A stretch of DNA of 64,000 bases from Epibacterium sp. Ofav1-8 (GTDB lineage Bacteria; Pseudomonadota; Alphaproteobacteria; Rhodobacterales; Rhodobacteraceae). Both the position numbers and the translations under genes were made by a program. This document shows, piece after piece, positions 29,830 through 44,928 of this stretch (position 1 is its first letter; every line of letters starts with the position of its first letter). The stretch is from assembly GCF_022348185.1 (NCBI RefSeq), contig NZ_JAKRFD010000001.1, positions 248,001 to 312,000 of the forward strand, written 5' to 3'. The notes below the pieces were generated by a model that was not told the origin of the DNA, ran no database searches, and saw nothing but the letters and a program-made list of their open reading frames with translations.

Positions 29830-31023
29830 TCAGCCCTTCACCGCTTTCACGATCTTCTCGGCCCCATCGGACAGATCATCCGCGGCAATCACGTTCAGGC
29901 CGGAGGTCGCGATGATCTCTTTGCCCTTCTCGACGTTGGTGCCTTCGAGACGCACAACCAGCGGAACCTCAAGACCGACTTCCTTCACGGCCGCGATCAC
30001 GCCTTCTGCGATCACGTCGCAGCGCATGATGCCGCCAAAGATGTTCACCAGGATGCCTTTGACGTTCTTGTCGGAGGTGATGATCTTGAACGCTTCGGTC
30101 ACTTTCTCCTTGGTGGCGCCGCCGCCCACATCGAGGAAGTTCGCAGGCTCCGCGCCATACAGCTTGATGATGTCCATGGTGGCCATCGCCAGACCTGCGC
30201 CGTTCACCATGCAGCCGATCTCGCCATCCAGCGCGATGTAGTTCAGGTCGTATTTCGACGCTTCCAGCTCCTTGGGGTCTTCCTCGGTGGTGTCGCGCAG
30301 CTCGGCGATGTCGGCGTGGCGATAGATCGCGTTGCCGTCAAACCCGACCTTGGCGTCCAGCACCTTGAGGTCGCCGCTGTCGGTCACGATCAGCGGGTTG
30401 ATCTCCAGCATCTCCATGTCCTTGTCGATGAAGGCCTGGTAGAGCTGACCCATCAGCTTGACGCACTGCTTCACCTGCGCGCCTTCAAGGCCGAGGGAGA
30501 AGGCGATGCGACGGCCGTGGTAGGGCTGGTAGCCGGTGGCCGGATCGACGGAGAAGGACAGGATCTTTTCCGGGGTCTCTGCGGCGACCTCTTCGATGTC
30601 CATGCCGCCCTCGGTGGAGCATACAAACGACACGCGCGAGGTCACGCGGTCCACCAGCAGCGCCAGATAGAGCTCGGTCTGGATGCCGGAGCCAGCTTCG
30701 ATGTAGATCCGGTTGACCTGCTTGCCCGCCGGGCCGGTCTGATGGGTCACAAGGGTGCGGCCCAGCATCTTCTTGGCTTCTTCTGCGGCTTCTTCCACCG
30801 ATTTGGTCAGGCGCACGCCGCCTTTTTCGCCCGCATCGGCCTCCTTGAAGGAGCCCTTGCCGCGGCCACCCGCGTGGATCTGGGCCTTCACCACCCAGAG
30901 CGGCCCGTCCAGCTCACCGGCTGCGGTCTTGGCTTCGTCGGCTTTCTTCACCACGCGCCCGTCGGAAACCGGAGCGCCGTAGCTGCGGAGGAGGGCCTTG
31001 GCCTGATATTCGTGGATGTTCAT
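29830..31023 (-). CDS. sucC: Succinyl-CoA synthetase beta subunit
   Basis: SucC is the ATP-grasp, nucleotide- and succinate-binding subunit of succinyl-CoA synthetase. The 397-residue protein starts [16 protein letters not shown], has [12 protein letters not shown] in the ATP-grasp domain, NPLIVTDSG, and the C-terminal [10 protein letters not shown]. Length is standard. It probably leads the sucC-GT25-sucD transcript. Upstream, two perfect TGTGATCACA palindromes begin 112 bases before its start codon. Confidence 0.96.
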
Positions 31024-31135
31024 GAGAAACTGTCCCGTCTGGCTGCAATTGTCCCTTGCTAGTACGCCGTCTTCAAACAGGAGGTTAAAGGGTTTTCTGC
31101 CCGGTGAGCGCTAAATGATGAAGTTTTTTCGGATT

Positions 31136-31166
31136 TGTGATCACAGGTTTGCGGGGTGTGATCACA
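31136..31166 (-). promoter_or_regulatory. Paired TGTGATCACA operator upstream of sucC
   Basis: Two exact 10-bp palindromes, TGTGATCACA at 31136-31145 and 31157-31166, are separated by 11 bases (21 bp centre to centre, about two helical turns). The nearer one ends 112 bases before the sucC start. The same pair with the same spacing lies before sdhC. The half-site TGTGA is also used by CRP/FNR proteins, but those need a 4-6-base centre, so the binder is unknown. Confidence 0.75.
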
Positions 31167-39398: not shown

Positions 39399-39708
39399 TT
39401 GCGCGCGGGCGCCGGGCTTGCGATCGCAAGCCGCTCTGGCAGCGCTGCGTGGCCCGGGTCAGCACCGGATCTGTGGCAGATGGTCCGGTCCCGGGGGGAT
39501 CGGGAATGCCTCTGCCTTGCATGGGCGGTGCTGATTCTGACTGTTCTACTTGGGATCGGAGTTTGTGATCACAGCAATCTGGCTTGTGATCACAACGTGG
39601 AGAAATTGCCACAAACGGCAGCGTTAACAGGCGATTTTTACCACTCGTTTGCGTGACAGTGCGCAAAAATAGGCTAAAACGTCGTCAGCTAACCGGAAAG
39701 GAGCCAAC
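39399..39708 (+). promoter_or_regulatory. sdh promoter region with paired TGTGATCACA operators
   Basis: Palindromes TGTGATCACA at 39564-39573 and 39585-39594 are 11 bases apart (21 bp centre to centre), the nearer one ending 114 bases before the sdhC start, almost exactly as at sucC. A possible promoter, TTGCGT then TAGGCT with a short 15-base spacer, lies near 39650-39675. GGAAAGGAG gives the sdhC ribosome site. The first half of the region (39399-39560) shows nothing else. Confidence 0.7.
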
Positions 39709-40098
39709 ATGGCCGATGTCAATCGGGGCAACCGCCCGCTATCGCCCTTTATGATTGGGCCGTACTACCGGCCGCAGCTTACCTCCATCTCCTCCATCAT
39801 GGTCCGGATCACCGGCATTGCCTCGCTCGGGGCGGCGTTGCTGGTGGTGTGGTGGTTGCTGGCGGCTGCGACCTCCGCGTCGTCCTTTGCAGTGATCGAC
39901 GGGCTCTTGCGCAGCTTTGTCGGCGACATTGTGCTGCTGCTCGCAAGCTGGGCGATCTTCTACCACATGCTGGGCCGCCTACGGCACGTGATCTGGGACT
40001 TCGGCTACTGCCTTGAGGTCTCCACCTCCGAAAAGATGGCGCGCGGCATGTTCGTGGGCGCAACCGTGCTGGCTATCCTCGCCGCCATCGTGCTGTAA
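39709..40098 (+). CDS. sdhC: Succinate dehydrogenase cytochrome b556 subunit
   Basis: SdhC is one of the two membrane anchors of complex II and shares heme b and the ubiquinone site with SdhD. The 129-residue protein has the SdhC signature RPLSPFMIGPYYRPQLTSISS at the start, three transmembrane helices, and the heme-ligand region FYHMLGRLRHVIWD with candidate histidines. AAGGAG lies 6 bases before the ATG. First gene of sdhCDA-x-x-B. Confidence 0.94.
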   Translation: MADVNRGNRPLSPFMIGPYYRPQLTSISSIMVRITGIASLGAALLVVWWLLAAATSASSFAVIDGLLRSFVGDIVLLLASWAIFYHMLGRLRHVIWDFGYCLEVSTSEKMARGMFVGATVLAILAAIVL

Positions 40099-40109
40099 GG
40101 AGATCTGAC

Positions 40110-40481
40110 ATGCGATTTCTGACTGACCGTAAGCGCGCCGAAGGTCTGGGCGCAGGGGGCACCGGCACCCATCACCACTGGCAGATGATGGTCACCTCGA
40201 TCCTGCTGGTTGTTCTGGTTCCGGCCTTTGTGATCACCTTTGGTCTCGGCCTTGGCGGCACTTACGAAGAGGTTCTGGCCTATTACGCCCGGCCGCTTCC
40301 CGCCATCATCACCGGGCTGACCCTTGTGGTCGGCGTCATTCACCTGATGCGCGAAACGCAGGTCGCGGTGGAGGACTATGTGCACGGGCTGGTCGGTAAA
40401 CTGCTGCTGATCGCCGTGGCGGCGTTTTCCTACACCCTGATTGCCGCGGGCCTGTTCGCCCTCGTCAAGCTCGCCCTCTGA
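40110..40481 (+). CDS. sdhD: Succinate dehydrogenase membrane anchor subunit
   Basis: SdhD is the second membrane anchor of complex II. The 123-residue protein has three hydrophobic helices and an N-terminal HHWQMMVTS segment; the long cytoplasmic start ([22 protein letters not shown]) is usual for alphaproteobacteria. [13 protein letters not shown] in the loop fits the quinone/heme neighbourhood. It begins 11 bases after sdhC with AAGGAG before the ATG. Confidence 0.92.
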
Positions 40482-40504: not shown

Positions 40505-42313
40505 ATGACAACAGCATATGAATATGAAACCCACGACTATGACGTGGTGGTTGTCGGTGCCGGTGGTGCGGGTCTGCGCGCCACCCTCGGCATGGCAGAG
40601 CAAGGCCTGCGCACCGCCTGTGTGACCAAGGTGTTCCCGACCCGCTCGCACACCGTGGCCGCACAGGGCGGCATTGCGGCCTCGCTGGGCAACATGGGCC
40701 CCGACAGCTGGCAGTGGCACATGTACGACACCGTCAAGGGCTCCGACTGGCTGGGTGACACGGATGCGATGGAATACCTCGCCCGCGAAGCACCCAAGGC
40801 GGTCTACGAGCTTGAACATTACGGCGTGCCGTTCTCGCGCACCGAGGAAGGCAAGATCTACCAGCGTCCCTTCGGCGGCCACACCACCGAGTTTGGCGAA
40901 GGCCCGCCGGTGCAGCGCACCTGTGCCGCCGCCGACCGCACCGGCCACGCGATCCTGCACACGCTCTATGGTCAGAGCCTCAAGCAGAAGGCGGAGTTCT
41001 ACATCGAGTATTTCGCCATCGACCTGATCATGTCCGACGACGGGCAGTGCCAGGGTGTGGTGTGCTGGAAGCTTGATGACGGCACCATGCATGTCTTCAA
41101 CGCCAAGATGGTGGTGCTGGCGACCGGCGGTTATGGCCGGGCCTATTTCTCCGCGACCTCGGCCCATACCTGCACCGGCGACGGTGGCGGCATGGTGGCG
41201 CGCGCAGGTCTGCCGCTTCAGGATATGGAGTTCGTGCAGTTCCACCCCACCGGCATCTACGGCTCCGGCTGTCTGATCACCGAGGGCGCGCGGGGCGAAG
41301 GCGGCTACCTGACCAACTCCGAAGGCGAGCGGTTCATGGAGCGTTATGCGCCCAACTACAAGGACCTCGCGCCACGCGACTATGTCTCGCGCTCCATGAC
41401 CATGGAGATCCGCGAGGGGCGCGGTGTCGGCGCCGAGGGCGATCATATTCACCTGAACCTCTCCCACTTGCCGGCCGAGGCTCTGGCGGAGCGTCTGCCG
41501 GGGATTTCCGAGTCTGCGAAGATCTTCGCAGGTGTCGACGTCACCAAAGAACCGATCCCGGTTCTGCCCACCGTTCACTACAACATGGGCGGTATCCCGA
41601 CGAACTATTGGGGTGAGGTGCTGAACCCGACCGAGGACAACCCGACCGGCGTCGTGCCGGGTCTGATGGCCGTGGGCGAGGCGGGCTGTGCCTCTGTGCA
41701 TGGTGCCAACCGTCTCGGCTCCAACTCGCTCATCGACCTCGTGGTCTTTGGTCGTGCGTCGGCCATTCGCGCCGGCAAGGTGGTGGACCCAGAGGCCCCC
41801 AATCCGGTGCTCAATCAGGCGTCGATCGACAAGGCGTTTGACCGCTTTGACACGCTGCGCAACGCCAAGGGTGGCACGCCCACCGCAGAGCTGCGTCTGG
41901 AAATGCAGCGCACCATGCAGGCGGATGCGGCGGTGTTCCGCACCGACAAGACCCTCAAGGAAGGCGTCGGCAAGATGGAGGCAATCGCCGCCAAGCTCGA
42001 CGATCTCCACGTCACCGATACCTCGCTGGTGTGGAACTCCGACCTGATGGAAACGCTGGAGCTCACCAACCTGATGCCCAACGCGCTGGCGACCATCGTC
42101 GGGGCCGAGGCGCGCAAGGAAAGCCGTGGGGCGCATGCGCATGAGGATTACGCCGAGCGTGACGATGACAACTGGCGCGTGCACACCGTGGCGCGGGTCG
42201 AGGGCAACAAGACCTCCCTCAGCTATCGTCCGGTGATTGTCGATCCGCTGACCGACGAGGACGCGGGCGGTATCAGCCTCCAGAAGATCGCGCCAAAGGC
42301 ACGGACCTTCTAA
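40505..42313 (+). CDS. sdhA: Succinate dehydrogenase flavoprotein subunit
   Basis: SdhA oxidises succinate to fumarate with covalently bound FAD. The 602-residue protein has the FAD motif [11 protein letters not shown], the flavinylated histidine in [10 protein letters not shown], and the active-site [10 protein letters not shown] and NMGGIPTN segments. The C-terminus ends normally. The TAA stop at 42311-42313 is followed at once by the ATG of a sulfotransferase-like gene, with no spacer. Confidence 0.97.
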
Positions 42314-43156
42314 ATGAGCGTTGCGCCTCCTCGACTGCTCTGCGTCGGCACGCATCACAAGACGGGTACCGTCTGGATGCGGCGTGTCTGGCGTTTGATC
42401 GGGGAGGCGCTCGATATTCCTTTTGTGCCTGTTCACAACCCGGCCAGATGGACAAAAATCCCGCAGACGGGGCGTGCGATTGTGGTGAACTGGGCCGGGG
42501 CCTTTGCGCCGGAGCTGTTCGACCACCCAGAAGCAAGGTTCCTGCACATCATCCGCGATCCGCGCGATGTTTTGCTGTCTGGCGCGCGCTATCATGAGAA
42601 CAGCCCCGGTCGGCAGGAACGGTTCCTGCATGGCCCGCGCGAGGATCTTGGCGGCAAGAGCTATCAGGAACACCTGCAGGCACTGCCTGATCCGGCGGCC
42701 AAGCTGGATTTCGAGATGCAGAATATGCATCTGAAAACACTGAATGAAATGCTCGCCTGGCCCTATGGGCATGACCGCGCGATGGATCTGCGCTATGAGG
42801 ATCTGATTGCGGATCAGGACTGCGCGATCTTTATCGGCGTGTTGCGTTTCTTTGGCTTCAGCGAGGCCGAGATCGAAACCGCGCGGCAGATCTACTATGA
42901 CAATTCGCTGTTTGGCGGCCTGAGTTCCGAGAGCGACGTCGGGCGCATGGCGACCCATGTCTCCTCGGGCAAGGCGCGCCAGTGGCCGTCCAAGCTGCCA
43001 CGCGCCACTGCCGCGCGCTATCTGGAGTGTCACGGCGACGATCTGATCACGCTGGGCTATGAGCGCGACAAGGACTGGCTGTCGCGGCTGGAAACCGACC
43101 AACAGGCAGAGGTGGCAAGCCCCCCTTTTGCACAGGCGGCAGGGGGGATGGCATGA
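42314..43156 (+). CDS. Sulfotransferase family protein inside the sdh operon
   Basis: A 280-residue PAPS-dependent sulfotransferase. The 5'-phosphosulfate loop is THHKTGTVWM near residue 13 and the 3'-phosphate motif HIIRDPRDVLLSGARYH near 78; RYEDLIADQD is the third conserved block. It would move a sulfate group to a carbohydrate, lipid or small molecule; the acceptor is unknown. It begins immediately after the sdhA stop and overlaps the next gene by 4 bases, so it is co-transcribed with sdh. Such a gene is not part of complex II. Confidence 0.88.
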   Translation: MSVAPPRLLCVGTHHKTGTVWMRRVWRLIGEALDIPFVPVHNPARWTKIPQTGRAIVVNWAGAFAPELFDHPEARFLHIIRDPRDVLLSGARYHENSPGRQERFLHGPREDLGGKSYQEHLQALPDPAAKLDFEMQNMHLKTLNEMLAWPYGHDRAMDLRYEDLIADQDCAIFIGVLRFFGFSEAEIETARQIYYDNSLFGGLSSESDVGRMATHVSSGKARQWPSKLPRATAARYLECHGDDLITLGYERDKDWLSRLETDQQAEVASPPFAQAAGGMA

Positions 43157-44019
43157 CCTCTGTCGCAGCCCTCGCCACTGTCGAAAATGTCTGGAGCGCC
43201 CTTGGCATTGCGCCGGGATCGGCGTTGCGGATGACCGGCATGCGCCGATCCGGCAACCACGCGATTGCCAATTGGCTGCAACGCAACGCGGATCATGCGT
43301 TGTTCTTGAACAATTGCCGCCCCGGTCATGACCCGCTGCGCAGCCACAATGGCATCGAGGTCTCGGGCCAGCGCTATGATGGCAGTGTGCAGGATGCCGC
43401 GGCAGAGGCAGGTGACGGGGTGTTGTTGCTGCTCTCTTACGAGGACACGCTGCATCTGCGCTTTGACAGCAGGGACAACCTGTCTGGCCCCTATGGCAGC
43501 GACAGTTTTGACGGCGATCTGCTGATCTACCGCAGTTTCCTCAATTGGAGCGCGTCACTGTTGAAAAAGCTGCAACGCAATGAAACCTACCGGTCTGCGG
43601 ACCGCATGGCGGTGATGGCGCGGGCGCTGGCGACCTATGGCGATCTGCTGGCCGAAGTGCTGGAGGCCGACAGCGCCGCACGCTGCGCGATCTGCTATGA
43701 CGACTGGGCGACGGATGCGGACTATCGGGCGCGGGTGCTGACCGATCTGGGCCTGCCGGTGCGGGACAACACCCTCGGCGCGGTGCAGGGCTATGGCGGT
43801 GGATCCAGCTTTGACGCGGGCAGCCCGGAGGCCGGAGACCTGCGCGTCACGGCACGCTGGCAGGCGATGGCGCCGGATCCGGAGTATCGCGCGCTGCTGC
43901 GCGTGGCGGCATTGGACCGCAGTTTCATGGACCGGCTTGCGGCCCTCTGTCCTGCGGATGCGGCGCGGATGACGCGTGTCGCAGCGCAGCCCGATTTTGA
44001 CCCGGAGGTGCTGACGTGA
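43153..44019 (+). CDS. Sulfotransferase-like P-loop protein inside the sdh operon
   Basis: A 288-residue protein with a nucleotide-loop GMRRSGNHAIANWL near residue 28, matching the 5' PAPS loop of divergent sulfotransferases, and LIYRSFLNWSASLLKKL in place of the usual RDPRD block. YDDWATDADYR corresponds to the third block. The loop has Arg-Ser-Gly-Asn-His where classical enzymes have Lys-Ser/Thr-Gly. It overlaps the previous sulfotransferase gene by 4 bases and ends 129 bases before sdhB. Activity and acceptor cannot be stated. Confidence 0.72.
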   Translation: MTSVAALATVENVWSALGIAPGSALRMTGMRRSGNHAIANWLQRNADHALFLNNCRPGHDPLRSHNGIEVSGQRYDGSVQDAAAEAGDGVLLLLSYEDTLHLRFDSRDNLSGPYGSDSFDGDLLIYRSFLNWSASLLKKLQRNETYRSADRMAVMARALATYGDLLAEVLEADSAARCAICYDDWATDADYRARVLTDLGLPVRDNTLGAVQGYGGGSSFDAGSPEAGDLRVTARWQAMAPDPEYRALLRVAALDRSFMDRLAALCPADAARMTRVAAQPDFDPEVLT

Positions 44020-44148
44020 GCCTCCGCCCCGACACATCGCGCAGATCCTGCGCCCCGCATGACGCCCGGATCGCTCCGGGCCCAGCCCTCTCCCCGTGCG
44101 CGCTGCCCCTTGCAGCCGTGGCGGGCAGCTAAGCAAGGAGACACGATC

Positions 44149-44928
44149 ATGGTCGAATTCGCACTTCCGAAAAACTCCAAGATCACCACAGGCAAGACCT
44201 GGCCCAAGCCAGAAGGCGCAACCAACGTCCGCAAGTTCCAGATCTATCGCTGGAACCCGGATGACGGCAAGAACCCGTCGGTGGATACCTATTTCCTCGA
44301 CATGGACAAATGCGGCCCGATGGTTCTGGACGCGCTGATCAAGATCAAGAACGAGATCGACCCGACGCTGACCTTCCGCCGCTCCTGCCGCGAGGGGATC
44401 TGTGGCTCCTGTGCGATGAACATCGACGGGATCAACACGCTGGCCTGTATCTATGGTCTCGACGAGGTGAAGGGCGACGTGAAGATCTACCCGCTGCCGC
44501 ATATGCCGGTGGTGAAGGACCTCATTCCCGACCTGACGCATTTCTATGCCCAGCATGCCTCGATCATGCCCTGGCTGGAAACCAAGACCAACCGCCCCGC
44601 CAAAGAGTGGAAACAGTCGATCGAGGACCGCAAGAAGCTCGACGGTCTCTATGAATGCGTGATGTGCGCGTCCTGTTCCACCTCCTGCCCGAGCTACTGG
44701 TGGAACGGTGATCGCTACCTCGGCCCCGCCGCGCTGCTGCACGCCTATCGCTGGATCATCGACAGCCGCGATGAGGCCACCGGAGAGCGCCTGAACGAGC
44801 TGGAAGACCCCTTCAAGCTCTACCGCTGCCACACCATCATGAACTGCGCCAAAACCTGCCCCAAGGGTCTCAACCCCGCCAAGGCGATCGCGCATATCAA
44901 GAAGATGATGGTCGAACGCACCGTTTGA
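44149..44928 (+). CDS. sdhB: Succinate dehydrogenase iron-sulfur subunit
   Basis: SdhB carries electrons from FAD to quinone through three iron-sulfur clusters. The 259-residue protein has the [2Fe-2S] set [12 protein letters not shown], the [4Fe-4S] motif [12 protein letters not shown] and the [3Fe-4S]-type [12 protein letters not shown]. The ATG at 44149 follows AAGGAG; the frame opens earlier but without support. It is separated from sdhA by two sulfotransferase-like genes (1.8 kb), yet shares strand and direction, and a terminator follows. Confidence 0.97.

Follow-up and report, generated by a model that had tools for sequence, protein, structure and literature searches.

Paired AkgR-type operators upstream of two TCA operons in the Rhodobacteraceae and their helical phase with the sdhC promoter

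Two central operons of the TCA cycle carry the same pair of palindromes upstream of their first genes, and this raises the question of which regulator would read these pairs, and which part of their geometry is held constant. In the window (the whole stretch of DNA analysed, 64,000 nucleotides), the 10-base palindrome TGTGATCACA occurs in four exact copies that form two pairs, one upstream of the succinate dehydrogenase operon and one upstream of the suc operon.

The operator pairs and their surroundings

The succinate dehydrogenase operon begins with sdhC (39709..40098, + strand; Pfam Sdh_cyt, 2.2e-19) and continues on the same strand with sdhD (40110..40481; Sdh_cyt, 7.4e-9), sdhA (40505..42313; FAD_binding_2 and Succ_DH_flav_C) and sdhB (44059..44928; Fer2_3 and Fer4 models). 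Between sdhA and sdhB, two same-strand frames (42314-44019, +) form an insertion into the operon; one matches a sulfotransferase weakly, and the other has no Pfam match. The suc operon begins with sucC (29830..31023, - strand; ATP-grasp_2, 1.8e-73, and Ligase_CoA, 6.5e-35). The sdh pair consists of a distal copy at 39564..39573 and a proximal copy at 39585..39594, about -118 and -97 from the predicted transcription start; the suc pair has its proximal copy at 31136..31145 (about -88) and its distal copy at 31157..31166 (about -109), again relative to a predicted start. Within each pair the copies are separated by 11 nt, with their centres 21 bp apart, and from the end of the nearer copy to the ATG there are 114 nt at sdhC (39709, +) and 112 nt at sucC (31023, -). 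Spacing and distances had been described in a sequence-only reading, and they are correct to the base.

The predicted sdhC promoter (39653..39680, +) combines GTGACA (39653-39658) with TAAAAC (39675-39680) over 16 nt, and has no T at position -7. According to the available text of PMC8407463, most alphaproteobacterial sigma-70 promoters are without this T, a pattern that the predicted sdhC promoter fits. Less certain is the predicted sucC promoter (31059..31089, -), with TTTAAC/TTAACC at 31089-31083 and TACTAG at 31064-31059. Its -35 element (about +55/56) would lie about one helical turn nearer to the operator pair than the -35 element of sdhC (+67) in this genome. The stretch between the sucC pair and its predicted promoter also contains TTTAGCGCTC (31106-31115, -), which is partly conserved in the genus and which we take to resemble a half-palindrome of the LacI family, perhaps that of CceR.

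Chance is a poor explanation for the four copies. Markov-1 and Markov-2 models predict 0.046 and 0.068 exact copies per 64 kb, and for two exact copies of the 10-mer spaced at 21 bp the expectation is about 3e-8 per window. In a weaker control, where up to one mismatch was allowed, five matches were found against a mean of 1.55, a number reached in 2 of 100 shuffles. The whole 4.76 Mb genome holds nine exact copies, of which only the window's four stand in close pairs, and the reversed pattern had no match in the whole-genome scan. Of the other five copies, one (L008) stands 9 nt ahead of the start codon of a GntR-family gene, the candidate AkgR orthologue discussed below; two are inside coding frames (L006 and L007, genes assigned by eye), and one is at the beginning of a frame for a cobalamin-type phosphatase (L009, also by eye). 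The fifth (L005, C31:276424-276433) is found ~125 nt ahead of a family-5 solute-binding protein gene (Pfam), an ABC-transporter site. Of the 13 genomes of the genus that have this gene, 4 carry the 8-mer GTGATCAC there (L005, L426-L438), once as a 20-bp pair, and it is possible that this is a lineage-specific AkgR target.

When the 8-mer alone is considered, the genome contains two further close pairs, at 21 bp (L024) and at 36 bp (C34:76498). The first of these (G000:C7:88921-88949) is an exact pair within a folC-like frame (gene by eye), where it reads as repeated Val-Ile-Thr; despite the right spacing, it is probably coding. Several genomes, this one included, have such extra close pairs of GTGATCAC elsewhere, with other spacings too. 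A scan of this genome for a larger regulon gave 30 near matches, of which one was examined closely and the rest were judged by position; the former is a degenerate AkgR-like pair at exactly 21 bp, lying ~130-165 nt before a clpA-like gene (L381, G000:C31:62608-62642; gene by eye). Finally, a further GTGATCAC lies within sdhD (40230-40237), in frame as Val-Ile-Thr codons. Of 19 sdhC loci examined, 10 have it, at +514 to +522 counted from the sdhC ATG, and it is probably coding; 4 of the 19 have a copy at +1725 to +1729, and none was found downstream of sdhC in the three loci among them from other genera. We have thus dropped the idea of a conserved third site downstream of sdhC, the sdhD copy being in frame and present in only 10 of the 19.

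Conservation of the pair and its phase with the sdhC promoter

To follow the pairs across relatives, we used a main sample of 101 genomes from 55 genera of the same family, drawn by an SdhC profile (one match each) regardless of the site; the counts of sdhC and sucC pairs and of phase come from this sample. A second set of loci (L064-L152) was chosen for holding pairs, and the results on spacer diversity and, within the genus, on ATG distance, TTTAA and TTTAGCGCTC rest on these pair-selected loci.

At sdhC, the pair is exact in 94 of the 101 genomes, with centres 21 bp apart in 80 (four of which have a third site 57 bp further upstream) and 20 bp apart in 14. Three more genomes (G075, G121 and G127) have a pair with one mismatch at 21 bp, and one (G120) has a degenerate pair at 20 bp that was recognised by eye where the script found none, which brings the total to 98 of 101; no sdhC pair was seen in G048, G051 and G100 among the 101 upstream regions read, and all three have akgR. 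At sucC, the pair is present at 20 or 21 bp in all 95 genomes read (the other six of the 101 had no sucC upstream region in the DNA stretch examined); one is degenerate, at 21 bp, and of the 94 exact pairs, 92 are at 21 bp and two at 20 bp. In two of these 92, a third site was found 21 or 48 bp farther upstream. No spacing other than 20 or 21 bp was found for the promoter-adjacent pair in the 101 sdhC and 95 sucC upstream regions. In a looser scan, a close pair was found among the matches listed in 101 of 101 genomes, with only one pair in eight of them, and the reversed-pattern control gave one in 1 of 101 genomes, again among the matches listed.

The DNA between the sites is free to change: among pair-selected loci, the 13-nt spacers are distinct in 47 of 48 cases at sucC and 40 of 44 at sdhC, with mean pairwise identities of 0.44 and 0.32. 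Together with the differing flanks, this bears out the earlier view that the two loci are not the product of a recent duplication. That same reading would have been undermined by palindromes that vary among relatives as the promoters stay conserved, and the family sample shows the opposite.

Outside the main sample, 11 of 80 named loci chosen by AkgR have a close exact pair in reach, all at 21 bp, three of them with additional sites at 21 or 26 bp; a twelfth (L207) has one mismatch. In Pseudotabrizicola sediminis, a Gemmobacter nectariphilus MAG and a Rhodobacteraceae MAG (L224, L233 and L246), three or four operators stand in a row upstream of sucC in 21-bp steps, with a 26-bp step in two of them. 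A wider scan of the class found a close pair in 13 of 190 genomes, three of which belong to the window's own family; of the ten outside it, one has a spacing of 21 bp and none of 20 bp, and in one of these class genomes (G197) the reversed control also matched 42 times. A pair of GTGATCAC with 21-bp spacing from a different family of the class (L183, 992-1020; genome G270) is flanked by a TonB-receptor-like gene (by eye) and a divergent gene for a GntR/FCD regulator, and other members of this regulator group may share the paired site.

Downstream of the sdhC pair, GTGAC[A/T] is conserved and is followed, mostly 16 nt on (62 of 91 genomes), by a TA-rich, -10-like sequence. For the phase analysis, the seven genomes without an exact sdhC pair were excluded, as were three of the remaining 94 that lack the -35-like motif at sdhC (G077, G114 and G130, all of one genus), leaving 91. 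Motif matches at offsets of 50-100 were kept and, of two, the one nearer to 67; this dropped secondary matches at 45 (two genomes), 94 and 169 (one each). Counted from the proximal GTGATCAC, the -35-like element starts after 55-58 nt in 8 genomes, 65-68 in 67, 77-79 in 12 and 87-88 in 4. Each group is displaced from the next by roughly one helical turn, and none of the 91 genomes measured falls in between. Taking one value per genus and group, 14 deviates are in phase with the main group, and none of 200,000 random draws was as good (periods of 10.3, 10.5, 10.7 and 11.0; random offsets from 50-95 without 64-69), in a test that treats genera as independent, which related genera are not. On a quick tree of SucC, with 95 rows, 87 of them labelled, and many weak inner branches (33 of 90 open), the 87 labelled genomes require 13 changes of offset group, which indicates that whole-turn steps recur.

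In the rarer 20-bp pairs, the proximal site lies ~1 bp further from the -35 element and the distal site stays put, at 87.7 nt for 20-bp pairs (11 genomes) and 87.5 nt for 21-bp pairs (80 genomes). Distances to the start codon behave differently. The sequence-only reading had proposed that one regulator acts from the same face and the same position on both operons; the shared face is supported by the 20/21-bp spacing and, at sdhC, by the phasing, but the shared position relative to the ATG is not, as this distance is near-constant within the genus only and ranges over the sample from 114 to 204 nt at sdhC (91 genomes) and from 96 to 117 nt at sucC (94 genomes). Neither the operator-to-ATG distances at sdhC (R 0.05) nor the distances from the -35 element to the ATG (R 0.13) showed a 10.5-bp periodicity, and we therefore reject start-codon distance as a functional constraint. 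What is kept at sdhC is the distance to the promoter, in helical phase, and the pair and this alignment are retained in most of the related genomes examined. For sucC, TTTAA lies at +55 in the genus loci and T columns at +55/56 are conserved over 92 genomes; a clear promoter motif shared by all genera could not be established from this alignment of 92 genomes. Linkage or local looping between sdh and suc is not a requirement, since the two pairs are 75 kb apart in one genome (G097).

The candidate AkgR gene and its own operator

The gene behind the L008 copy encodes a protein with GntR and FCD domains (Pfam), and lies outside the window, on another contig than sdhC (G000:C34:149976-150635, equal to L008:1520-2179). 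From its domains, its gene neighbourhood and the literature, it is probably the orthologue of AkgR; we infer its match to RSP_0981, which we take to be AkgR, just as we take RSP_1663 to be CceR. Among the matches listed, 100 of the 101 order genomes have an orthologue of at least 66% identity, and at E<=1e-45, the candidate was found in three of 190 genomes of the class, all three from the window's own family. The one genome without a clear orthologue (G063) has both operator pairs and a best akgR match of only 2.3e-13 among the matches listed; a genome of the same genus (G060) has akgR, and the missing gene could reflect either an assembly gap or a loss. Two of the genomes without an sdhC pair, G048 and G051, have the two weakest-scoring of the 100 orthologues listed (66% and 71% identity).

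In 45 of the 100 genomes (26 genera), akgR lies within 30 kb of sdhC: 42 of these genes are on the suc side, 14-24 kb away, and three are beyond sdh, at 4.7, 12 and 14.6 kb. In the other 55, this genome included, it is farther off or on another contig. The orthologue at 4.7 kb beyond sdhC is that of G134, a position that the locus numbers RSP_0974-6 and RSP_0981 of R. sphaeroides would lead one to expect. The named relatives found with this G134 protein (77-94% identity) are from Rhodobacterales, the nearest of them from Cereibacter ovatus (94%), and on this ground the family is called Rhodobacteraceae.

Near the start of akgR, GTGATCAC is found in 40 of 110 loci with enough upstream DNA. The 110 comprise 31 from the order sample (30 of which are the best-scoring, closest relatives) and 79 named loci, and the site is present in 24 of the former vs 16 of the latter; this genome has it, and G134 does not. 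In all 40 cases, its first base comes 17-20 nt (in 34 of them exactly 18) after that of a TTGAC/T element, which would place it on the predicted -10 element. A single site in this position suggests that AkgR represses its own gene.

Proposed mechanism and comparison with known systems

The pairs are very probably AkgR binding sites. We propose that each palindrome would bind one AkgR dimer. The dimers of a pair would be neighbours on the same face of the helix, separated by two turns, and in this genome they would occupy the region ~88-120 bp ahead of the predicted start points of sdhC and sucC. Activation would then occur through a contact that must keep helical register with RNA polymerase, whereas a dimer on the single site over the predicted -10 of akgR should repress. 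Judged as a whole, this reading, with two dimers per pair activating sdh and suc in helical register and a single site mediating autorepression of akgR, appears to us likely. Its strictest form, in which the locked pair activates only in register, between about -88 and -141 by prediction, and the single -10 site represses akgR, we would give an even chance.

The main competing reading is repression of sdh and suc from the pairs, by AkgR or by another protein bound there, e.g. through looping to a further site; we consider this improbable, even though single sites on the -10 of akgR should repress and 10 of the 19 sdhC loci carry the additional copy in sdhD. The sdhD copy reads as Val-Ile-Thr codons in the window and is absent from the three loci of other genera, and the proximal operator begins 55-88 nt before the sdhC -35-like element, off the promoter. 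Helical phasing is what an upstream activator touching the polymerase would require; a repressor without a partner site is less likely at that distance, and the available text of PMC6365646 calls AkgR an activator.

Slightly less probable still is that AkgR-type sites are used here by a different regulator, be it another GntR/FCD paralogue, CceR or a protein of the CRP/FNR type. The genome has 28 GntR-domain matches, 26 of them above the curated cut-off, and the L183 pair, which comes from a different family of the class, adjoins a GntR/FCD gene. Against this stands the AkgR-orthologue gene itself, with one of the nine exact genomic copies of TGTGATCACA 9 nt before its ATG. CRP/FNR-type sites read TGTGA-N6-TCACA or TTGAT-N4-ATCAA; no such site is present by eye in TGTGATCACA, where the half sites abut without the gap. 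RSP_1663 is predicted in the available text of PMC4344238 to control sdh in R. sphaeroides too, but its predicted motif there, [AGT]GTT-N6-8-AAC[ACT], differs and is not contained, by eye, within the palindrome TGTGATCACA. A non-regulatory origin of the repeats, as a sequence curiosity, restriction or methylation site or structural element, deserves next to no credence: GTGATCAC does contain GATC and the core of a common restriction site, and single copies and some pairs do lie in coding frames, but near-invariant sites with free spacers stand at two orthologous places with 20/21-bp spacing in the sample of 101 genomes from 55 genera, and pairs of the reversed pattern were found, among the matches listed, in one genome vs all 101.

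If the proposed activation by phased AkgR dimers is true, the sdhC pair has moved in whole-turn steps (-1, 0, +1 and +2), and the family has performed a natural helical-phase experiment; natural variation by itself, in the form of these shifts, suggests that a GntR-family activator acting from upstream must face RNA polymerase, and offsets near 56, 67, 78 and 88 provide ready-made test promoters. A simple rule would follow: a lone site in the core promoter means repression, and a phased pair upstream means activation. One regulator would link two central TCA operons in a large bacterial family, through a pair rule so strict that additional targets could be predicted from sequence.

Among solved structures, McbR (4p9f) is nearest by sequence to the candidate AkgR (phmmer E 5.9e-19, best of six at E<=1e-5); it is likewise a GntR protein of the FCD type but a different regulator, and none of the six matches is named AkgR. 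In the class I promoters of Escherichia coli CRP, upstream activator sites work only at positions that differ by one helical turn; these positions are nearer to the promoter, from -61.5 to about -92.5, and one dimer suffices. The likeness to CRP lies in the helical phasing, protein and site being unrelated. A gntR-like regulator of the deoxyribonate cluster in Pseudomonas simiae, PS417_07240, has the palindrome GTGATCAC near its own start and is 32% identical to AkgR (available text of PMC6365646), but there a single palindrome lies at -47 to -40 from the start codon, and the targets are others. The closest likeness is to the AkgR regulon of Rhodobacter sphaeroides, the source for the motif, the predicted targets and the activator role. 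In the available text, GTGATCAC was identified among the binding sites of the activator AkgR (PMC6365646), and RSP_0981, of the GntR family, is a predicted regulator of sucCD, sdh and 2-oxoglutarate dehydrogenase (PMC4344238). The same traits recur here: GTGATCAC is exact at all four window sites, pairs lie upstream of Pfam-confirmed sucC (95/95, one degenerate) and sdhC (94/101 exact), and a probable GntR-family orthologue is encoded. The strict 20/21-bp pair, its phase-locking with the promoter and the single autoregulatory site are details absent from the available text of these two sources, to which the comparison extends. Regulator, motif and targets are thus already known in kind, and what is added here is the geometry.
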